In this document: positions 34,017 to 40,762 of the stretch, piece after piece
Numbering within the stretch: position 1 is the stretch's first letter
Layout: the number at the start of each line of letters is the position of its first letter
Origin: Paremcibacter congregatus
GTDB taxonomy: Bacteria > Pseudomonadota > Alphaproteobacteria > Sphingomonadales > Emcibacteraceae
Length of the DNA: 64,000 bases
Reading direction: 5' to 3'
NCBI RefSeq assembly: GCF_006385135.1
Contig: NZ_CP041025.1
Location: 1,271,501-1,335,500, forward strand
The notes under the pieces: generated by a model
What the model was told of the DNA's origin: nothing
The model's input: the letters and a program-made list of their open reading frames with translations, nothing else
Databases searched by the model: none
Program-made: the position numbers and the translations under genes

Positions 34017-34379
34017 ATGATCACCGTATATGGCATTAAAAATTGCGATACCATCAAGAAAGCATTGAAATGGTTGACGGACCAGAGTGTCGCACATCAT
34101 TTTCATGATTTTCGTAAAGATGGGCTGGAACGCCAGATGTTGCAGGGATGGGTAACGGAACTTGGGCTGGATGTCGTGTTGAACAAGCGCGGAACCACCT
34201 GGCGTAAGTTGCCGGACGCCGAGAAAGAAAGCCTGACCGAGGCGACGGCGATTGATCTGATGCTAGAACAGCCGGCAATGATCAAGCGCCCGGTTTTTGA
34301 TTTCGGTGACCATCGGCGGGTGGGCTTTGCGAAAAAGGATGTGGCGGAAATCGAAGCTTTGCTGCAATCCGGCCTTTAA
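34017..34379 (+). CDS. ArsC/Spx family protein (YffB-like)
   Basis: A 120-residue thioredoxin-fold protein of the arsenate reductase/Spx/YffB family. The N-terminal active loop reads YGIKNCDTIKKALKWL, with a single cysteine at about residue 10 (Cys-x-Thr) instead of the CxxC of thioredoxins, as in YffB. The later NKRGTTWRKL and the C-terminal PAMIKRPVFDFGDHRRVGF are typical. Such members are glutathione-linked or regulatory rather than true arsenate reductases. It is the third gene of the pdxH-CDF operon, and its stop overlaps the stop of the convergent SufR-like gene. Confidence 0.9.
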   Translation: MITVYGIKNCDTIKKALKWLTDQSVAHHFHDFRKDGLERQMLQGWVTELGLDVVLNKRGTTWRKLPDAEKESLTEATAIDLMLEQPAMIKRPVFDFGDHRRVGFAKKDVAEIEALLQSGL

Positions 34380-35044
34380 TCCTCTTCACCTTTTGGGACG
34401 ACTGTATAGGCACAACGACGGGCGCCTTTGATGATATGTTCCGTACGGTTGACGGAAACCTTATCCCCCAATACGCTTTTAAACAAATCCAGTTCTCTGG
34501 CGCAGATGCCGGAACAGACCCGGGCGGCTTCGCACACCGGGCAATTGTTTTCCACGAAAAGAAAACTGTCCTTCCTGTCTCCCGGCAGGATGTCCGTCAT
34601 ATAGCCTTCTCGGCTGCGCAGATCCGATAGGGCAGCAAGTTTTTCCGCCAGGGGATCATCAGCATCAATTTGTGTTTGGTAATCGGTCACTTGTTCCCGC
34701 AAACGTACGTCGAGCAATTTCTCCATGCCCTGATCGCCAAAGGTTTTCTTGATGGAGGAAATCAGTCCAGTGGAAAAATCCGCATGGGTATTGGGAAAAT
34801 GCGTTTGTGCCTGTTCCGTCAGCTGCCAGAGCTTCGCCGGGCGTCCCTTGGGGCGCGCCACTTTGCAATGGCAAATATCCCCCAGTTCTTCAAGCGCGTA
34901 TAGATGCTGTCGAATGGCCATATCAGTTACGCCGAGAGACGCGGCAAGGGCGGGGGCTTCCTGGGGGCCCTGTTGCTTTAGCAGGGTCAGAATGCGGGCG
35001 CGGGTCTTTTCTGCCGCAGTTTTTTTCTGTGTTTTCAAAGTCAT
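34376..35044 (-). CDS. SufR-like iron-sulfur transcriptional regulator
   Basis: A 222-residue DNA-binding protein. Residues 10-75 form a winged helix with RARILTLLKQQGPQEAPALA and SLGVTDMAIRQHLYALEELG. The C-terminal part carries cysteines at 168, 171, 177, 181 and 211 in NNCPVCEAARVCSGICAREL and KGARRCAYTVVPKG. This is the arrangement of the SufR family, which binds an Fe-S cluster and represses Fe-S assembly genes when the cluster is present. Here it is divergent from a 40-codon ORF and a Rieske protein gene rather than suf genes, so the regulated targets are probably these and itself. No suf genes are in the window. Confidence 0.85.
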   Translation of the reverse strand: MTLKTQKKTAAEKTRARILTLLKQQGPQEAPALAASLGVTDMAIRQHLYALEELGDICHCKVARPKGRPAKLWQLTEQAQTHFPNTHADFSTGLISSIKKTFGDQGMEKLLDVRLREQVTDYQTQIDADDPLAEKLAALSDLRSREGYMTDILPGDRKDSFLFVENNCPVCEAARVCSGICARELDLFKSVLGDKVSVNRTEHIIKGARRCAYTVVPKGEED

Positions 35045-35049
35045 AATTA

Positions 35050-35084
35050 TTTTCTAAAGAAAAAGATTTTAAAAGTAAAGAAAA
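35050..35084. promoter_or_regulatory. Candidate operator repeats in the divergent promoter
   Basis: The gap between the SufR-like gene and the 40-codon ORF has a palindrome TTTTCT-AA-AGAAAA at 35050-35063, and TAAAGAAAA occurs twice as a direct repeat at 35055-35063 and 35076-35084, starting 21 bases (two turns) apart. It does not match the CAAC-N6-GTTG SufR site described in cyanobacteria. AT-richness makes this a moderate call. Confidence 0.4.
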
Positions 35085-35129
35085 GAGTGTATTTTTTTTA
35101 TAGATAAAACTTTAAAAAAGGAATTGATC

Positions 35130-35252
35130 ATGCATATTACCATAGAAAACGCCGCTTCACCCGCTGTATCCTTTAGTGAAATTGTGGAGCGTTTATCTGA
35201 ATTGATGACTTTTATCAAGGCGTCCGATGCGGGTCCTTGGGTGCAGAAATAA
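35130..35252 (+). CDS. 40-residue small ORF ahead of the Rieske gene
   Basis: A short ORF encoding MHITIENAASPAVSFSEIVE then RLSELMTFIKASDAGPWVQK. A good ribosome site, AAAAGGA, lies eight bases before the ATG, and 33 bases separate its stop from the next ATG. It is a cytoplasmic peptide with an amphipathic helix in the middle and a polar end with a tryptophan; there is no signal peptide. It could be a partner or regulator of the Rieske protein, a leader peptide, or a modified-peptide precursor. No recognised motif was found. It is worth testing for conservation. Confidence 0.6.
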   Translation: MHITIENAASPAVSFSEIVERLSELMTFIKASDAGPWVQK

Positions 35253-35285
35253 TTGTGAGTAAAGATTCGAGGAAGGAATTTTTCC

Positions 35286-36872
35286 ATGAATAACGCGGAA
35301 AATTGGGTAAAAATTGAAAATACAACGGCACTCAAAGATAAGGGTCGAATGGTCTTCCGGCAAGAGGGGAAACAAATCCTGCTTATCCGGAGCGGGACGC
35401 AAATCTTTGCGGTGAATAACCGTTGCCCTCATGAAGGATACCCCTTGAGTGAAGGCAGTCTGTCGCAAGATTGCAGTCTGACCTGTAATTGGCATAACTG
35501 GAAATTTGATCTCAAGAGCGGTGACACGCTGGTCGGCGGGGACAGATTGCGCCATTATCCCGTGCGGCAAGGGGAAGACGGTCTGTGGATTGATCTGCAG
35601 GATATTTCTGCGTCACAAGTGCGTCAACAGGCGCTGGATAATATTCAGGCAAGTTTTGATCGGTATGAATATGACCGTATGGGGCGGGAACTGGCTCGTT
35701 TCAGGCGGGCTGGCGGCGCATATCAAGAGGCGGTTCTGGATAGCCTGCTGCGCAACTACGACCGGCTGGAATATGGTATGGGGCATGCTTTCGCCGCCGC
35801 GGCGGACTGGTTGGCTTATGGGCAGGAACTGGAGCAACAGGGGAAGGATGAAGACTCTTTGGCGACGGTGCTCGAAATTATCAGCCACGTGGCCTGGGAT
35901 TGCCAGCGTAATCCGTCCTATCCTTATACACAGAATGTTCTTCCCTATACCCCGGAAGGTCTTCGGGCGGCCATTGAGGCGGAAGATGAAAATCGCGCCA
36001 TCGCCTTGACGCGCGGGGCCTTAAAAGCAGGACTGACCTTTGGTGACTTAATGCCTGTTCTGTCCCGGGCGGCGCTGGATCATTACAAAGGGTTCGGTCA
36101 TGCCGCGATCTATACATATAAGGCGGGGCAGCTGGCAGATCTGTTAGGCGAAGAAGCCTGGGAAGCATTGCTTTTTCCACTAGTGCGTTATCTGGTTTAC
36201 GCCAATCGGGAAGATTTGATTCCTGAGTTTCGCGCTTACAGTAAACGGCTTGCCCTGTGGGACGGGAAAGGTGATCAGCCGATCTTTGCGGATGACCTGA
36301 AGGGCCTTTCCGTGTCCAAGAGCCTGGCGCGGGTGGTGCAGTCCTCGGCGCGTCCTGAGGAGGTTTTCCTGGCCTTGCAGGAGGTCCTGGCCTGGAACAT
36401 GCTGCATTTTGATGTGCAATTTGAACAGGCGACGGATAATGCCGTCGTGGATAATGTCAATTGGCTGGACTTCACCCACGGTCTGACATTTGCCAATGCG
36501 GTGCGGGTGCTCTGCGAGCAGGTGCCTGACCTTTGGCCGCGCGCCTTGTTGCAGATGGCCTGTTTTAATGGCCGTAACCAGTCCTATATCGCACGAAATA
36601 TGGACCTGAAAGACTGGTATGTTGCGGACAGGGACAAGTTTTTCGCTGAAACTTTTACCGATTTGCTGGATCACGGGCAGCCAGAGCCGATTATTTCCGC
36701 GCATCTGATGAAACTTAGTACAGCGGTGCGGACAGAGGTGGAACGGGCATCGGGTATGAGGCGGGACGTCATGCTGGCCGGTCTTAACCGGTTCCTGCAT
36801 AGCCCGATCAAGCGCAAGCATCTGTTGCGCACCGCCCGTCAGGCGTATCGGTTTGTCGCCCGTGAAGGGTAA
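35286..36872 (+). CDS. Rieske [2Fe-2S] protein fused to a large helical domain
   Basis: A 528-residue protein. Residues 5-105 form a Rieske domain with C47-x-H49 in NRCPHEGYPL and C67-x2-H70 in CNWHNWKF, the four cluster ligands. Residues 115-528 are predicted mostly helical and I do not recognise them firmly. They hold conserved-looking histidines in YGMGHAFAAAAD (H167), DHYKGFGHAAIYTYKAG (H266, H272), MLHFDVQF (H374) and DFTHGLTFANAV (H398), which look like possible metal ligands. This could be an oxygenase-like or questin-oxidase-like part, but that is a guess. The Rieske domain would pass electrons to it. It has no signal peptide. It follows the 40-residue ORF and lies near a SufR-like regulator, suggesting Fe-S-dependent expression. 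Confidence 0.82.
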   Translation: MNNAENWVKIENTTALKDKGRMVFRQEGKQILLIRSGTQIFAVNNRCPHEGYPLSEGSLSQDCSLTCNWHNWKFDLKSGDTLVGGDRLRHYPVRQGEDGLWIDLQDISASQVRQQALDNIQASFDRYEYDRMGRELARFRRAGGAYQEAVLDSLLRNYDRLEYGMGHAFAAAADWLAYGQELEQQGKDEDSLATVLEIISHVAWDCQRNPSYPYTQNVLPYTPEGLRAAIEAEDENRAIALTRGALKAGLTFGDLMPVLSRAALDHYKGFGHAAIYTYKAGQLADLLGEEAWEALLFPLVRYLVYANREDLIPEFRAYSKRLALWDGKGDQPIFADDLKGLSVSKSLARVVQSSARPEEVFLALQEVLAWNMLHFDVQFEQATDNAVVDNVNWLDFTHGLTFANAVRVLCEQVPDLWPRALLQMACFNGRNQSYIARNMDLKDWYVADRDKFFAETFTDLLDHGQPEPIISAHLMKLSTAVRTEVERASGMRRDVMLAGLNRFLHSPIKRKHLLRTARQAYRFVAREG

Positions 36873-38069: not shown

Positions 38070-38162
38070 CATCGCTGATAAAATAGATGCATATACAACC
38101 TTGAAGTGGTGTGTGCTTTCTATTAGTATAATATTCCTTAATAATAAGGGATAGAGGAAGTG

Positions 38163-39266
38163 ATGCGCTGGCCAATCATTCTTTTGCTTGGTGTACTGCT
38201 ATTGGAGTTGGCCCCGGATGGGGTGGCGGAAGAGAATCCATCAGAAAAGCAAAAACTCATTCAGCTCTATGACGAATATAAAACCGTTTTAAAGAACGGT
38301 TCATCTGATAAATCCATACCACTAGCCGTAGAGATTTATAATCTTTCGCGCCGGATTTACGGGGAGAAATCGAAGATACATGCCACAGCTGTTTTTAATC
38401 TGGCTCAGGTGCAGAGTCATTTCACTAACTATGAAGAGGCTGCGCACCTTTACCAGCAGCACCTTGATATTTTAGAGCACCTGGAAACGCCTGAAGATGA
38501 AACATACCTATTCAAATTTGGGCTGTTGGCTCAGACCTACCGGCAGGCCAAAGAGCTAAAGAAGGCTGTCGTTTGGGGCAAAAAGGCCTTAAATATGGCC
38601 AAGAGCTTGGAGTTGCCGCCAGAGAAAATCGCTCCCTATGAATTGGATCTGGGGCGGACTTACTATACGACTTTTGGCAAAGGGGGAATGGCGGCGCGCT
38701 ATTTTGAAAAAGCCTATAGTCATTTTGTGGACGCCTATGGGGAAGATCATATAAAGGTGGCAGACGCCTTATTTTGGCAGGCTAAAGTTGATTTCTATTA
38801 TCACGATTCTGAAAAGGCTGCTGAAAAATTTGAACGGGTGCGTATGATTTTTGAGAGAGAACTCTCGAATGGCCATCATCTCATCTGGGAACTTTATGGT
38901 TTATTGGTCGGCGCTTACGTGGAAATGGGAGATGCTGAGAAAGCCACCCAGCGCTCGATTGCCGCTGCTGAGCACCGCCCCGAAGGGTTTGATAAAGAAG
39001 TTATATCGCTTTTTAAAGTTGCGCCAGAATATCCCTATTCTGCTATGCTTAAAGGAATAGGAGGACATGTGATTGTTGAGTTCACGGTTACGGAGACAGG
39101 AGAAGTCGAGGGTATCAAAACGATTGACGGCGAAAATATAGAGATTTTCGAGGAAGCGGCTCATAATGTCGCGGCAAAATTTAGATATGTGCCCTCTCTC
39201 CAAAATGGCAAGCGTGTTAAGACAGAAGGTATTCTTCACAAAATCACTTTTGAATATAGGGAGTAA
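38163..39266 (+). CDS. TPR protein with C-terminal TonB domain (paralog 1)
   Basis: A 367-residue exported protein. A signal peptide lies at residues 1-23 (ending near GVAEE). Then a tetratricopeptide-like helical region covers about residues 30-265, with repeated motifs such as AAHLYQQHLDILEHLETPED. The end is a TonB C-terminal domain, residues 278-367, with YPYSAMLKGIGGHVIVEFTV and KFRYVPSLQNGKRVKTEG. A TonB domain without an N-terminal anchor is seen in periplasmic proteins of unclear role. A GTG three bases upstream is an alternative start; an AGAGGA ribosome site supports the ATG. It is closely similar to the gene at 39659, so the two arose by duplication. Confidence 0.85.
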   Translation: MRWPIILLLGVLLLELAPDGVAEENPSEKQKLIQLYDEYKTVLKNGSSDKSIPLAVEIYNLSRRIYGEKSKIHATAVFNLAQVQSHFTNYEEAAHLYQQHLDILEHLETPEDETYLFKFGLLAQTYRQAKELKKAVVWGKKALNMAKSLELPPEKIAPYELDLGRTYYTTFGKGGMAARYFEKAYSHFVDAYGEDHIKVADALFWQAKVDFYYHDSEKAAEKFERVRMIFERELSNGHHLIWELYGLLVGAYVEMGDAEKATQRSIAAAEHRPEGFDKEVISLFKVAPEYPYSAMLKGIGGHVIVEFTVTETGEVEGIKTIDGENIEIFEEAAHNVAAKFRYVPSLQNGKRVKTEGILHKITFEYRE

Positions 39267-39658: not shown

Positions 39659-40762
39659 ATGTATCATTTCATCAAAATCTTAATGTGTATAATTGTGATG
39701 ATGGCGCCGGTGGCCTCAGTCGCGGGTGACGATTCTGATCCAAAAGCCCATATCACACAACTCTATAAAACTTATATCACCACGCTGAAGGCGGGAGATG
39801 AAGAAAAGGCGTTGGGTCTGGCTCAGGAGATGTACAGTCTATCGCCGCCTGTATTCGGGGCTTATTCAAAGTCTCATGCCACGATGGCGTTTAATCTGGC
39901 CCAAATGCTGGAGAAACGGCGGGAATACCTTGCCGCGCTGCCTTATTATCAGGAGCATGTGGATATTCTTGAGAAATTGAAGGCGCCGGAAGACGAAACC
40001 TATCTCTATAAGCTCGGGTTGCTGGCCCAGGCCTATCGCAATGCGCGTGAGGAGGAAAAGGCGGCAAAATGGAGCATGAAGGCCTTGGTGTTGGCGAGAG
40101 ATCTGCAGTTGCCTAAAGAAGTGATCGGCGACTATGAGCTTGAGCTTGGCAGTTCTTATTATGGCGTTCATGGAGAGGTGAGATCGGCACGTCGATACCT
40201 CAAGAAAGCTCATGATCATTATTTAGAGGTCTATGGAGAAGATCACGTCAAAACCGCGCAAGCTTTATTTTGGTTAGCTAAAGTAGACGCCTCTTTCAGA
40301 AAACATCGACAAGCTGCGGAGAAGTTGGAAGCTGTTTTGCAGGTGTATGAAAAGAACTTCCCCAAAGGCCATGACATGACCTTGCAGGTCCATGCTTTTC
40401 TCGTGGGGGCATATGAGGGCAAGGGGGATAAAGATAAGGCGACGGAACATTGCATTGCGGTCGCCACGGAACGTCCCACGGATTTTGACCGGGAGATCGA
40501 TCCCCTCTACAAAATAGCGCCTACCTATCCCCTATCTGCGGCGCGCAGCGGTAAGGAAGGGTTTGTCATTGCGGAATTTGTGGTGACGGCGTCAGGGCAG
40601 GTAGAAAATATTAAAACCCTTGAAGGGGAAAATATACGGGATTTTGAAAAAGCCGCTCATGAAGCTTTGTCCAAGTTTCGCTATGCGCCTTCCATCCAAA
40701 ATGGCCAACGTGTTCGAACAGAAGGTGTCTTGCATAGGGTAACGTTTAAAATGGCGCAGTGA
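39659..40762 (+). CDS. TPR protein with C-terminal TonB domain (paralog 2)
   Basis: A 367-residue protein, the same layout and length as the gene at 38163. Signal peptide residues 1-22 (ending near VASVAG), TPR-like helices about residues 30-265 (GLLAQAYRNAREEEKAAKWS), and a TonB C-terminal domain in the last 90 residues with YPLSAARSGKEGFVIAEFVV and KFRYAPSIQNGQRVRTEG. GGGG precedes the ATG by five bases. Both paralogs keep the same hydrophobic core, suggesting a retained, possibly envelope-sensing or protein-binding role, such as contact with an outer-membrane transporter. No TonB-dependent receptor is adjacent; the nearest is at 61668. Confidence 0.87.
   Translation: MYHFIKILMCIIVMMAPVASVAGDDSDPKAHITQLYKTYITTLKAGDEEKALGLAQEMYSLSPPVFGAYSKSHATMAFNLAQMLEKRREYLAALPYYQEHVDILEKLKAPEDETYLYKLGLLAQAYRNAREEEKAAKWSMKALVLARDLQLPKEVIGDYELELGSSYYGVHGEVRSARRYLKKAHDHYLEVYGEDHVKTAQALFWLAKVDASFRKHRQAAEKLEAVLQVYEKNFPKGHDMTLQVHAFLVGAYEGKGDKDKATEHCIAVATERPTDFDREIDPLYKIAPTYPLSAARSGKEGFVIAEFVVTASGQVENIKTLEGENIRDFEKAAHEALSKFRYAPSIQNGQRVRTEGVLHRVTFKMAQ

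Follow-up and report, generated by a model that had tools for sequence, protein, structure and literature searches.

A Rieske ferredoxin domain fused to a predicted BTG13-like iron oxygenase beside a SufR-type regulator gene in Paremcibacter congregatus

The window analysed here, a stretch of 64,000 nucleotides from the Paremcibacter congregatus genome, encodes a 528-residue protein which, judged by sequence alignments and a structure model, is a Rieske ferredoxin domain followed by a BTG13-like iron oxygenase with predicted metal ligands. The protein is probably a single-chain, reductase-dependent iron oxygenase, its Rieske domain serving a BTG13-type iron, under a dedicated SufR-type repressor that would act at two dyads. 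Enzyme and repressor together look like a self-contained inducible oxygenase system that so far has no name. The chances appear about even that they represent a second kind of Rieske oxygenase of independent evolutionary origin, with a four-histidine and carboxylated-lysine iron on a questin-oxidase fold and SufR-type induction, forming an undescribed family with nearly 300 GTDB loci.

The initial annotation had called a regulator, a 40-residue ORF and a Rieske ORF at this place, and all three proved genuine, with the coordinates listed in Table 1. Its description of the genes was likewise borne out as regards the five C-terminal cysteines of the 222-aa regulator (C168, C171, C177, C181 and C211), the strong ribosome site before the short ORF (AAGGAAT-type) and the complete Rieske domain (C47/H49/C67/H70; Pfam Rieske E 3.6e-16, residues 6–81). 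The locus is flanked by Spx/ArsC-like and cation-efflux genes upstream and by a gene for a PAP2-family membrane protein downstream. The Spx/ArsC-like gene (34017–34379, plus strand) overlaps the minus-strand regulator gene tail to tail by 4 bases (34376–34379). Further along, the plus-strand genes at 38160–39266 and 39659–40762 form a tandem pair encoding similar proteins of 367–368 aa, apparently a local duplication, in which TPR-like helical repeats and a TonB-C-like end can be made out by eye.

Table 1. Features of the locus, in positions of the window
Feature	Position	Strand	Evidence
SufR-like winged-helix repressor gene	34376–35044	(-)	222 aa; TIGR02702 and Pfam HTH_5 matches, cysteine counts
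Operator 1 (putative), TTTCTAAAG-N6-ATTTTAAAA, degenerate dyad	35051–35074		motif search of divergent gaps
Operator 2 (putative), TTTTTATAG-N6-CTTTAAAAA, 44 bp beyond operator 1	35095–35118		motif search of divergent gaps
40-aa microprotein ORF, MHITIENAASPAVSFSEIVERLSELMTFIKASDAGPWVQK, conserved tail GPW-x-[YQ]-K	35130–35252	(+)	same length and frame in relatives
Rieske / questin-oxidase-like fusion gene	35286–36872	(+)	528 aa
Rieske [2Fe-2S] ferredoxin domain, residues 6–105	35301–35600	(+)	Pfam PF00355; VIA Z 15.1 vs Rieske ferredoxin of naphthalene dioxygenase, 2qpz
BTG13-like helical iron-oxygenase domain (predicted), residues 140–516	35703–36833	(+)	VIA Z 16.9 vs 7y3w, 334 residues
H167, proposed Fe ligand; PF14027 'NH' motif, = H30 of A3	35784–35786	(+)	invariant, n=90; equivalence from motif order
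H266, proposed Fe ligand, = H120 of A3	36081–36083	(+)	invariant, n=90; equivalence from motif order
H398 in F-T-H-x-[IL]-T, proposed Fe ligand, = H248 of A3	36477–36479	(+)	invariant; hhalign
H473-x-x-K476, proposed Fe-ligand His and carboxylatable Lys, = H316-x-x-K319 of A3 and DDGHLAK377 of BTG13	36702–36713	(+)	invariant; hhalign

The C-terminal domain of the fusion protein

Pfam and NCBIfam scans gave no match above cut-off beyond approximately residue 107, a PDB profile search returned Rieske proteins only, and the gathering cut-off of PF14027 was reached neither by the window protein nor by 11 homologues. In an alignment of 90 homologues, H167, H266, H398, H473 and K476 are invariant, and they occur in the same order as the four invariant histidines and the HxxK lysine (H30, H120, H248, H316 and K319) of an alignment of bacterial PF14027-like proteins, here called A3. 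Alignment of the window family to A3 by hhalign placed FTH on FTH and HxxK on HxxK, with a score (31.1) above those of all 40 column-shuffled controls. Since one of these controls came close at 30.7 (the others stayed at or below 21.8), the sequence evidence is weak when taken alone, and the profile-profile probability between the C-terminal part and the PF14027-type alignment was only 6–9%. The BTG13 segment that corresponds to H473-x-x-K476 is DDGHLAK, and its lysine at position 377 is the carboxylated lysine ligand of the BTG13 iron. The title of a 2024 paper in ACS Catal., cited in PMC12186474, agrees with Kcx377 in BTG13. Six spaced histidines had been singled out in the initial annotation, among which H167, H266, H272 and H398 are invariant and H201 is mostly kept, while H374 is not conserved; H473 and K476, both invariant, were missing from that list. 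H272, invariant in the fusion family, is nevertheless no PF14027-wide ligand.

Folded as a single sequence, the protein gave an uninformative model (pLDDT 39.8). The AlphaFold model built from the alignment of 90 homologues reached a pLDDT of 95.7 and a pTM of 0.92, and its residues 140–516 matched in VIA the structures of BTG13 (7y3w, Z 16.9 over 334 residues), an AflY-type dioxygenase (8yxs, Z 16.5) and the hydroquinone dioxygenase PaD (8z4q, Z 14.3, and 8z4r, Z 14.1). Among the VIA matches listed, only these four, all of questin-oxidase type, align to the C-terminal domain; the remainder cover the Rieske part, and the Rieske oxygenases in the list align to residues 1–114 only. The four alignments span 325–335 residues at an rmsd of 4.5–4.8 Å and 10–13% identity, and because helical folds can reach a Z of about 14 by chance, Z alone is not proof of fold kinship. 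The top 50 Foldseek matches listed were Rieske matches only, the C-terminal match surfacing solely in VIA. The questin-oxidase idea had come from the sequence motifs before the structure model existed, and A3 finds by sequence the same solved enzymes as VIA does. It is the fold match together with the corresponding invariant ligand set that points to a protein in which a BTG13-like iron oxygenase follows a Rieske ferredoxin domain. The metal site suspected at the outset in this part of the protein has thereby gained a counterpart, the match being no non-metal domain but an iron-oxygenase fold with conserved histidines.

The Rieske-fusion protein is found at 293 loci in the GTDB species set. 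The best 80 of these are mostly from Alphaproteobacteria, the closest being Emcibacter sequences with 58–60% identity, and they also include some gammaproteobacterial, SAR324 and Calditrichaeota MAGs. Cultured carriers include Parvibaculum indicum and Pelagibius litoralis. Of 289 genomes from the class, 26 had relatives when the C-terminal part alone served as query, and the fusion was far rarer in a phylum-wide sample (5/398 genomes, including its own). The gene is single-copy in its own genome, where two other proteins match weakly and through the Rieske part only, and a search of viral contigs and plasmids for relatives of the fusion protein found none. A comparison of 25 full-length sequences, the window protein among them, showed both halves throughout and no exception to the four Rieske ligands, so that within this set the C-terminal domain is not seen without its Rieske partner. 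A fusion copy in one genome (G163; L028/L053) has an internal TAG and is possibly a pseudogene or an assembly error.

The SufR-type regulator and its putative operator

The regulator matches TIGR02702 with 125.4 bits over positions 2–208 of 208, below the SufR equivalog cut-off of 178.8. Four of its cysteines (C168, C177, C181 and C211) are present in 81–82 of 82 homologues, and C171 in 75. In Mycobacterium Rv1460, three cysteines are required, with the arrangement C203-x12-C216-x27-C244 (PMC6034842); the corresponding C168, C181 and C211 are present here with spacings of 13 and 30, compared to 13 and 28 in Rv1460. The SufR-type cysteines would be consistent with the earlier suggestion that expression follows cluster supply.

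Among 97 distinct loci whose upstream sequence extends to 900 nt or more, 54 have regulator and fusion gene divergent and no more than 300 nt apart (median gap 122 nt); four further loci have the regulator nearby, and approximately 40% are without an adjacent one. The two genes also co-occur between genomes, the lack of which would have counted against the initial annotation: the regulator is present in 17/26 genomes with the enzyme and in 16/263 without it (289 genomes; Fisher p 1.8e-12). Clustering of the neighbours around the fusion loci left the regulator as the only constant partner, the other clusters being SDR, cation-efflux and antisense ORFs, and it revealed no constant substrate, reductase or pathway gene.

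The dyad AAAG-N6-CTTT has an exact match in 33 of 55 divergent gaps, compared to a mean of 0.63 and a maximum of 3 in shuffles, and was the only motif enriched at spacings of 2–11; gaps lacking an adjacent regulator had it in 3 of 40 cases (p 1e-7). In 38 gaps the dyad is present twice at a distance of 38–50 bp, each copy deviating at no more than one position; the extended consensus is TTTCTAAAG-N6-CTTTAGAAA. Site 1 merges at its right half with a TTGACA-like hexamer in the Emcibacter relatives. The operator of Synechocystis SufR, CAAC-N6-GTTG, has the same geometry (PMC13421787); it was found in none of the 55 gaps. Both sites in the window are degenerate. Even so, the 4.19-Mb genome holds only five matches, and two fall in this gap, 44 bp apart, while a reversed control pattern has three matches genome-wide; for the window as a whole, 0.02 matches were expected against the two observed. 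This concentration favours a local repressor, which appears to control the fusion gene through its own putative DNA sites. A global SufR role was judged unlikely for the same reason.

The same regulator type also stands before other genes. In two genomes without the fusion (G123 and G227), it is divergent from a stand-alone PF14027 gene (L177 and L178; regulator identity 45% and 43%), and in both gaps the two dyads recur at a distance of 38 bp. The stand-alone and the Rieske-fused enzyme thus seem to be controlled by one and the same type of regulator, and this gives independent support for placing the C-terminal domain in the questin-oxidase group. Other relatives of the regulator (L183, L185 and L192–L194) are, by eye, divergent from genes resembling multidrug/MFS-type transporters, and several of these gaps contain AAAG-N6-CTTT; the family may have a wider type of regulon. 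Neighbours of this kind would fit if the regulator sensed some toxic, redox-active compound.

Proposed mechanism and alternative readings

The best reading of the fusion is that the Rieske domain feeds the metal site in the second domain. Electrons would pass from a reductase to the N-terminal [2Fe-2S] cluster and on to a mononuclear non-heme iron in the C-terminal helical domain, presumably held by H167, H266, H398, H473 and K476, the lysine probably carboxylated as in BTG13. The iron would activate O2 for the oxygenation, probably a cleavage or hydroxylation, of a cyclic substrate, (hydro)quinone-like or otherwise. A [4Fe-4S] dimer of the SufR-type repressor may bind the two AAAG-N6-CTTT dyads about 44 bp apart, at the -35 region and close to where transcription starts; loss or change of the repressor's cluster would relieve the repression so that the gene is expressed. 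Candidate signals are a redox-cycling compound, oxidative or nitrosative stress, and iron shortage.

The strongest competing view takes the Rieske domain for a reactivase outside the catalytic cycle: it would only re-reduce Fe(III), and the substrate would supply all electrons, as the fungal enzymes are assumed to work. There are precedents for ferredoxins reactivating extradiol dioxygenases (XylT), and the stand-alone PF14027 proteins that share this regulator and operator do without a Rieske domain. An optional repair part would, however, hardly need to be kept in every fusion homologue examined with its four ligands invariant, and this alternative is considered unlikely. Still less probable is a C-terminal domain which keeps the fold but serves as redox sensor, scaffold or non-oxygenase, for example a hydrolase or reductase, with another metal. 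The very low identity to known oxygenases (10–13%) would allow for it, but 90/90 sequences retain the whole putative ligand set, and the domain comes joined to an electron-transfer partner.

The role of the 40-residue ORF bears on a further alternative, in which the enzyme belongs to a peptide-modifying system with this ORF as its substrate or small subunit. The ORF is co-directional with the enzyme gene and lies just upstream of it, and its conserved C-terminal GPW-x-[YQ]-K offers modifiable aromatic residues. It is also coding: four species keep it in frame, each time with 40 aa, and length, start, ribosome site and frame are kept in the window and at L056, L057 and L059 (partially at the contig edge of L058), with differences fewest at codon position 2, as in coding sequence. 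Its matches are nonetheless confined to the genus level; moreover, L055 carries a frameshift in it and L060 lacks it, though enzyme and regulator are kept at both loci. These points make the peptide-modifying alternative very improbable. A general role as peptide substrate was rejected, the GPW-x-x-K tail being found in the Emcibacter group only. The initial annotation had grouped the ORF with the other two genes in a possible redox system; it is genuine, but its restriction to the Emcibacter genus takes it out of any conserved three-gene core. It is a genus-level accessory, either a microprotein or a leader peptide. Upstream of position 7995 in L055, the frameshifted ORF still ends, in a different frame, with the codons GPWVQK-stop, which resembles recent decay.

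With the reductase-dependent oxygenase remaining the preferred reading, approximately 400 residues common to hundreds of proteins that were recognisable only by their Rieske domain gain a fold and a predicted metal site. If the reading is true, Rieske domains pair with a second oxygenase fold, and a branch of bacterial enzymes carrying its own electron donor would take questin-oxidase chemistry past substrates that supply electrons themselves. Now that fold and metal site are predicted and the operator sites of the regulator are defined, enzyme and sensor alike are directly testable.

Comparison with known systems

Research on questin-oxidase-type enzymes has treated them as fungal enzymes with an unusual iron site, and to our knowledge their fold has so far been solved only in fungal-type ring-cleaving enzymes. 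Among the papers searched, none contains both 'Rieske' and 'questin oxidase'. The window protein resembles BTG13, GedK, AflY and PaD (PF14027) in its fold over 325–335 residues (Z 14.1–16.9 to BTG13, the AflY-type enzyme and PaD) and in the order of the four histidines and the HxxK lysine, the equivalence of H167 and H266 being by motif order only. It differs from them in being bacterial, in its added N-terminal Rieske domain and in the invariant H272, E197, R134 and R138 of its family, and it is not filed under PF14027 because it lies below the sequence cut-off.

With Rieske non-heme iron oxygenases such as the carbazole and naphthalene dioxygenases, the protein has in common that a single chain combines a Rieske domain (CxH...CxxH) with what is presumably a mononuclear iron oxygenase site. 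In contrast to theirs, its catalytic domain is all-helical and fits the BTG13-type fold, with four histidines and HxxK in place of a 2-His-1-carboxylate site; this difference in catalytic fold keeps it out of the classical Rieske oxygenases. Similarly, the regulator resembles SufR of cyanobacteria and Mycobacterium (Rv1460) in its winged helix, its C-terminal cysteines (C168-x12-C181-x29-C211) and an operator built as half-site-N6-half-site, but it stays below the equivalog cut-off, has other half-site letters and appears to control an oxygenase gene rather than suf genes.
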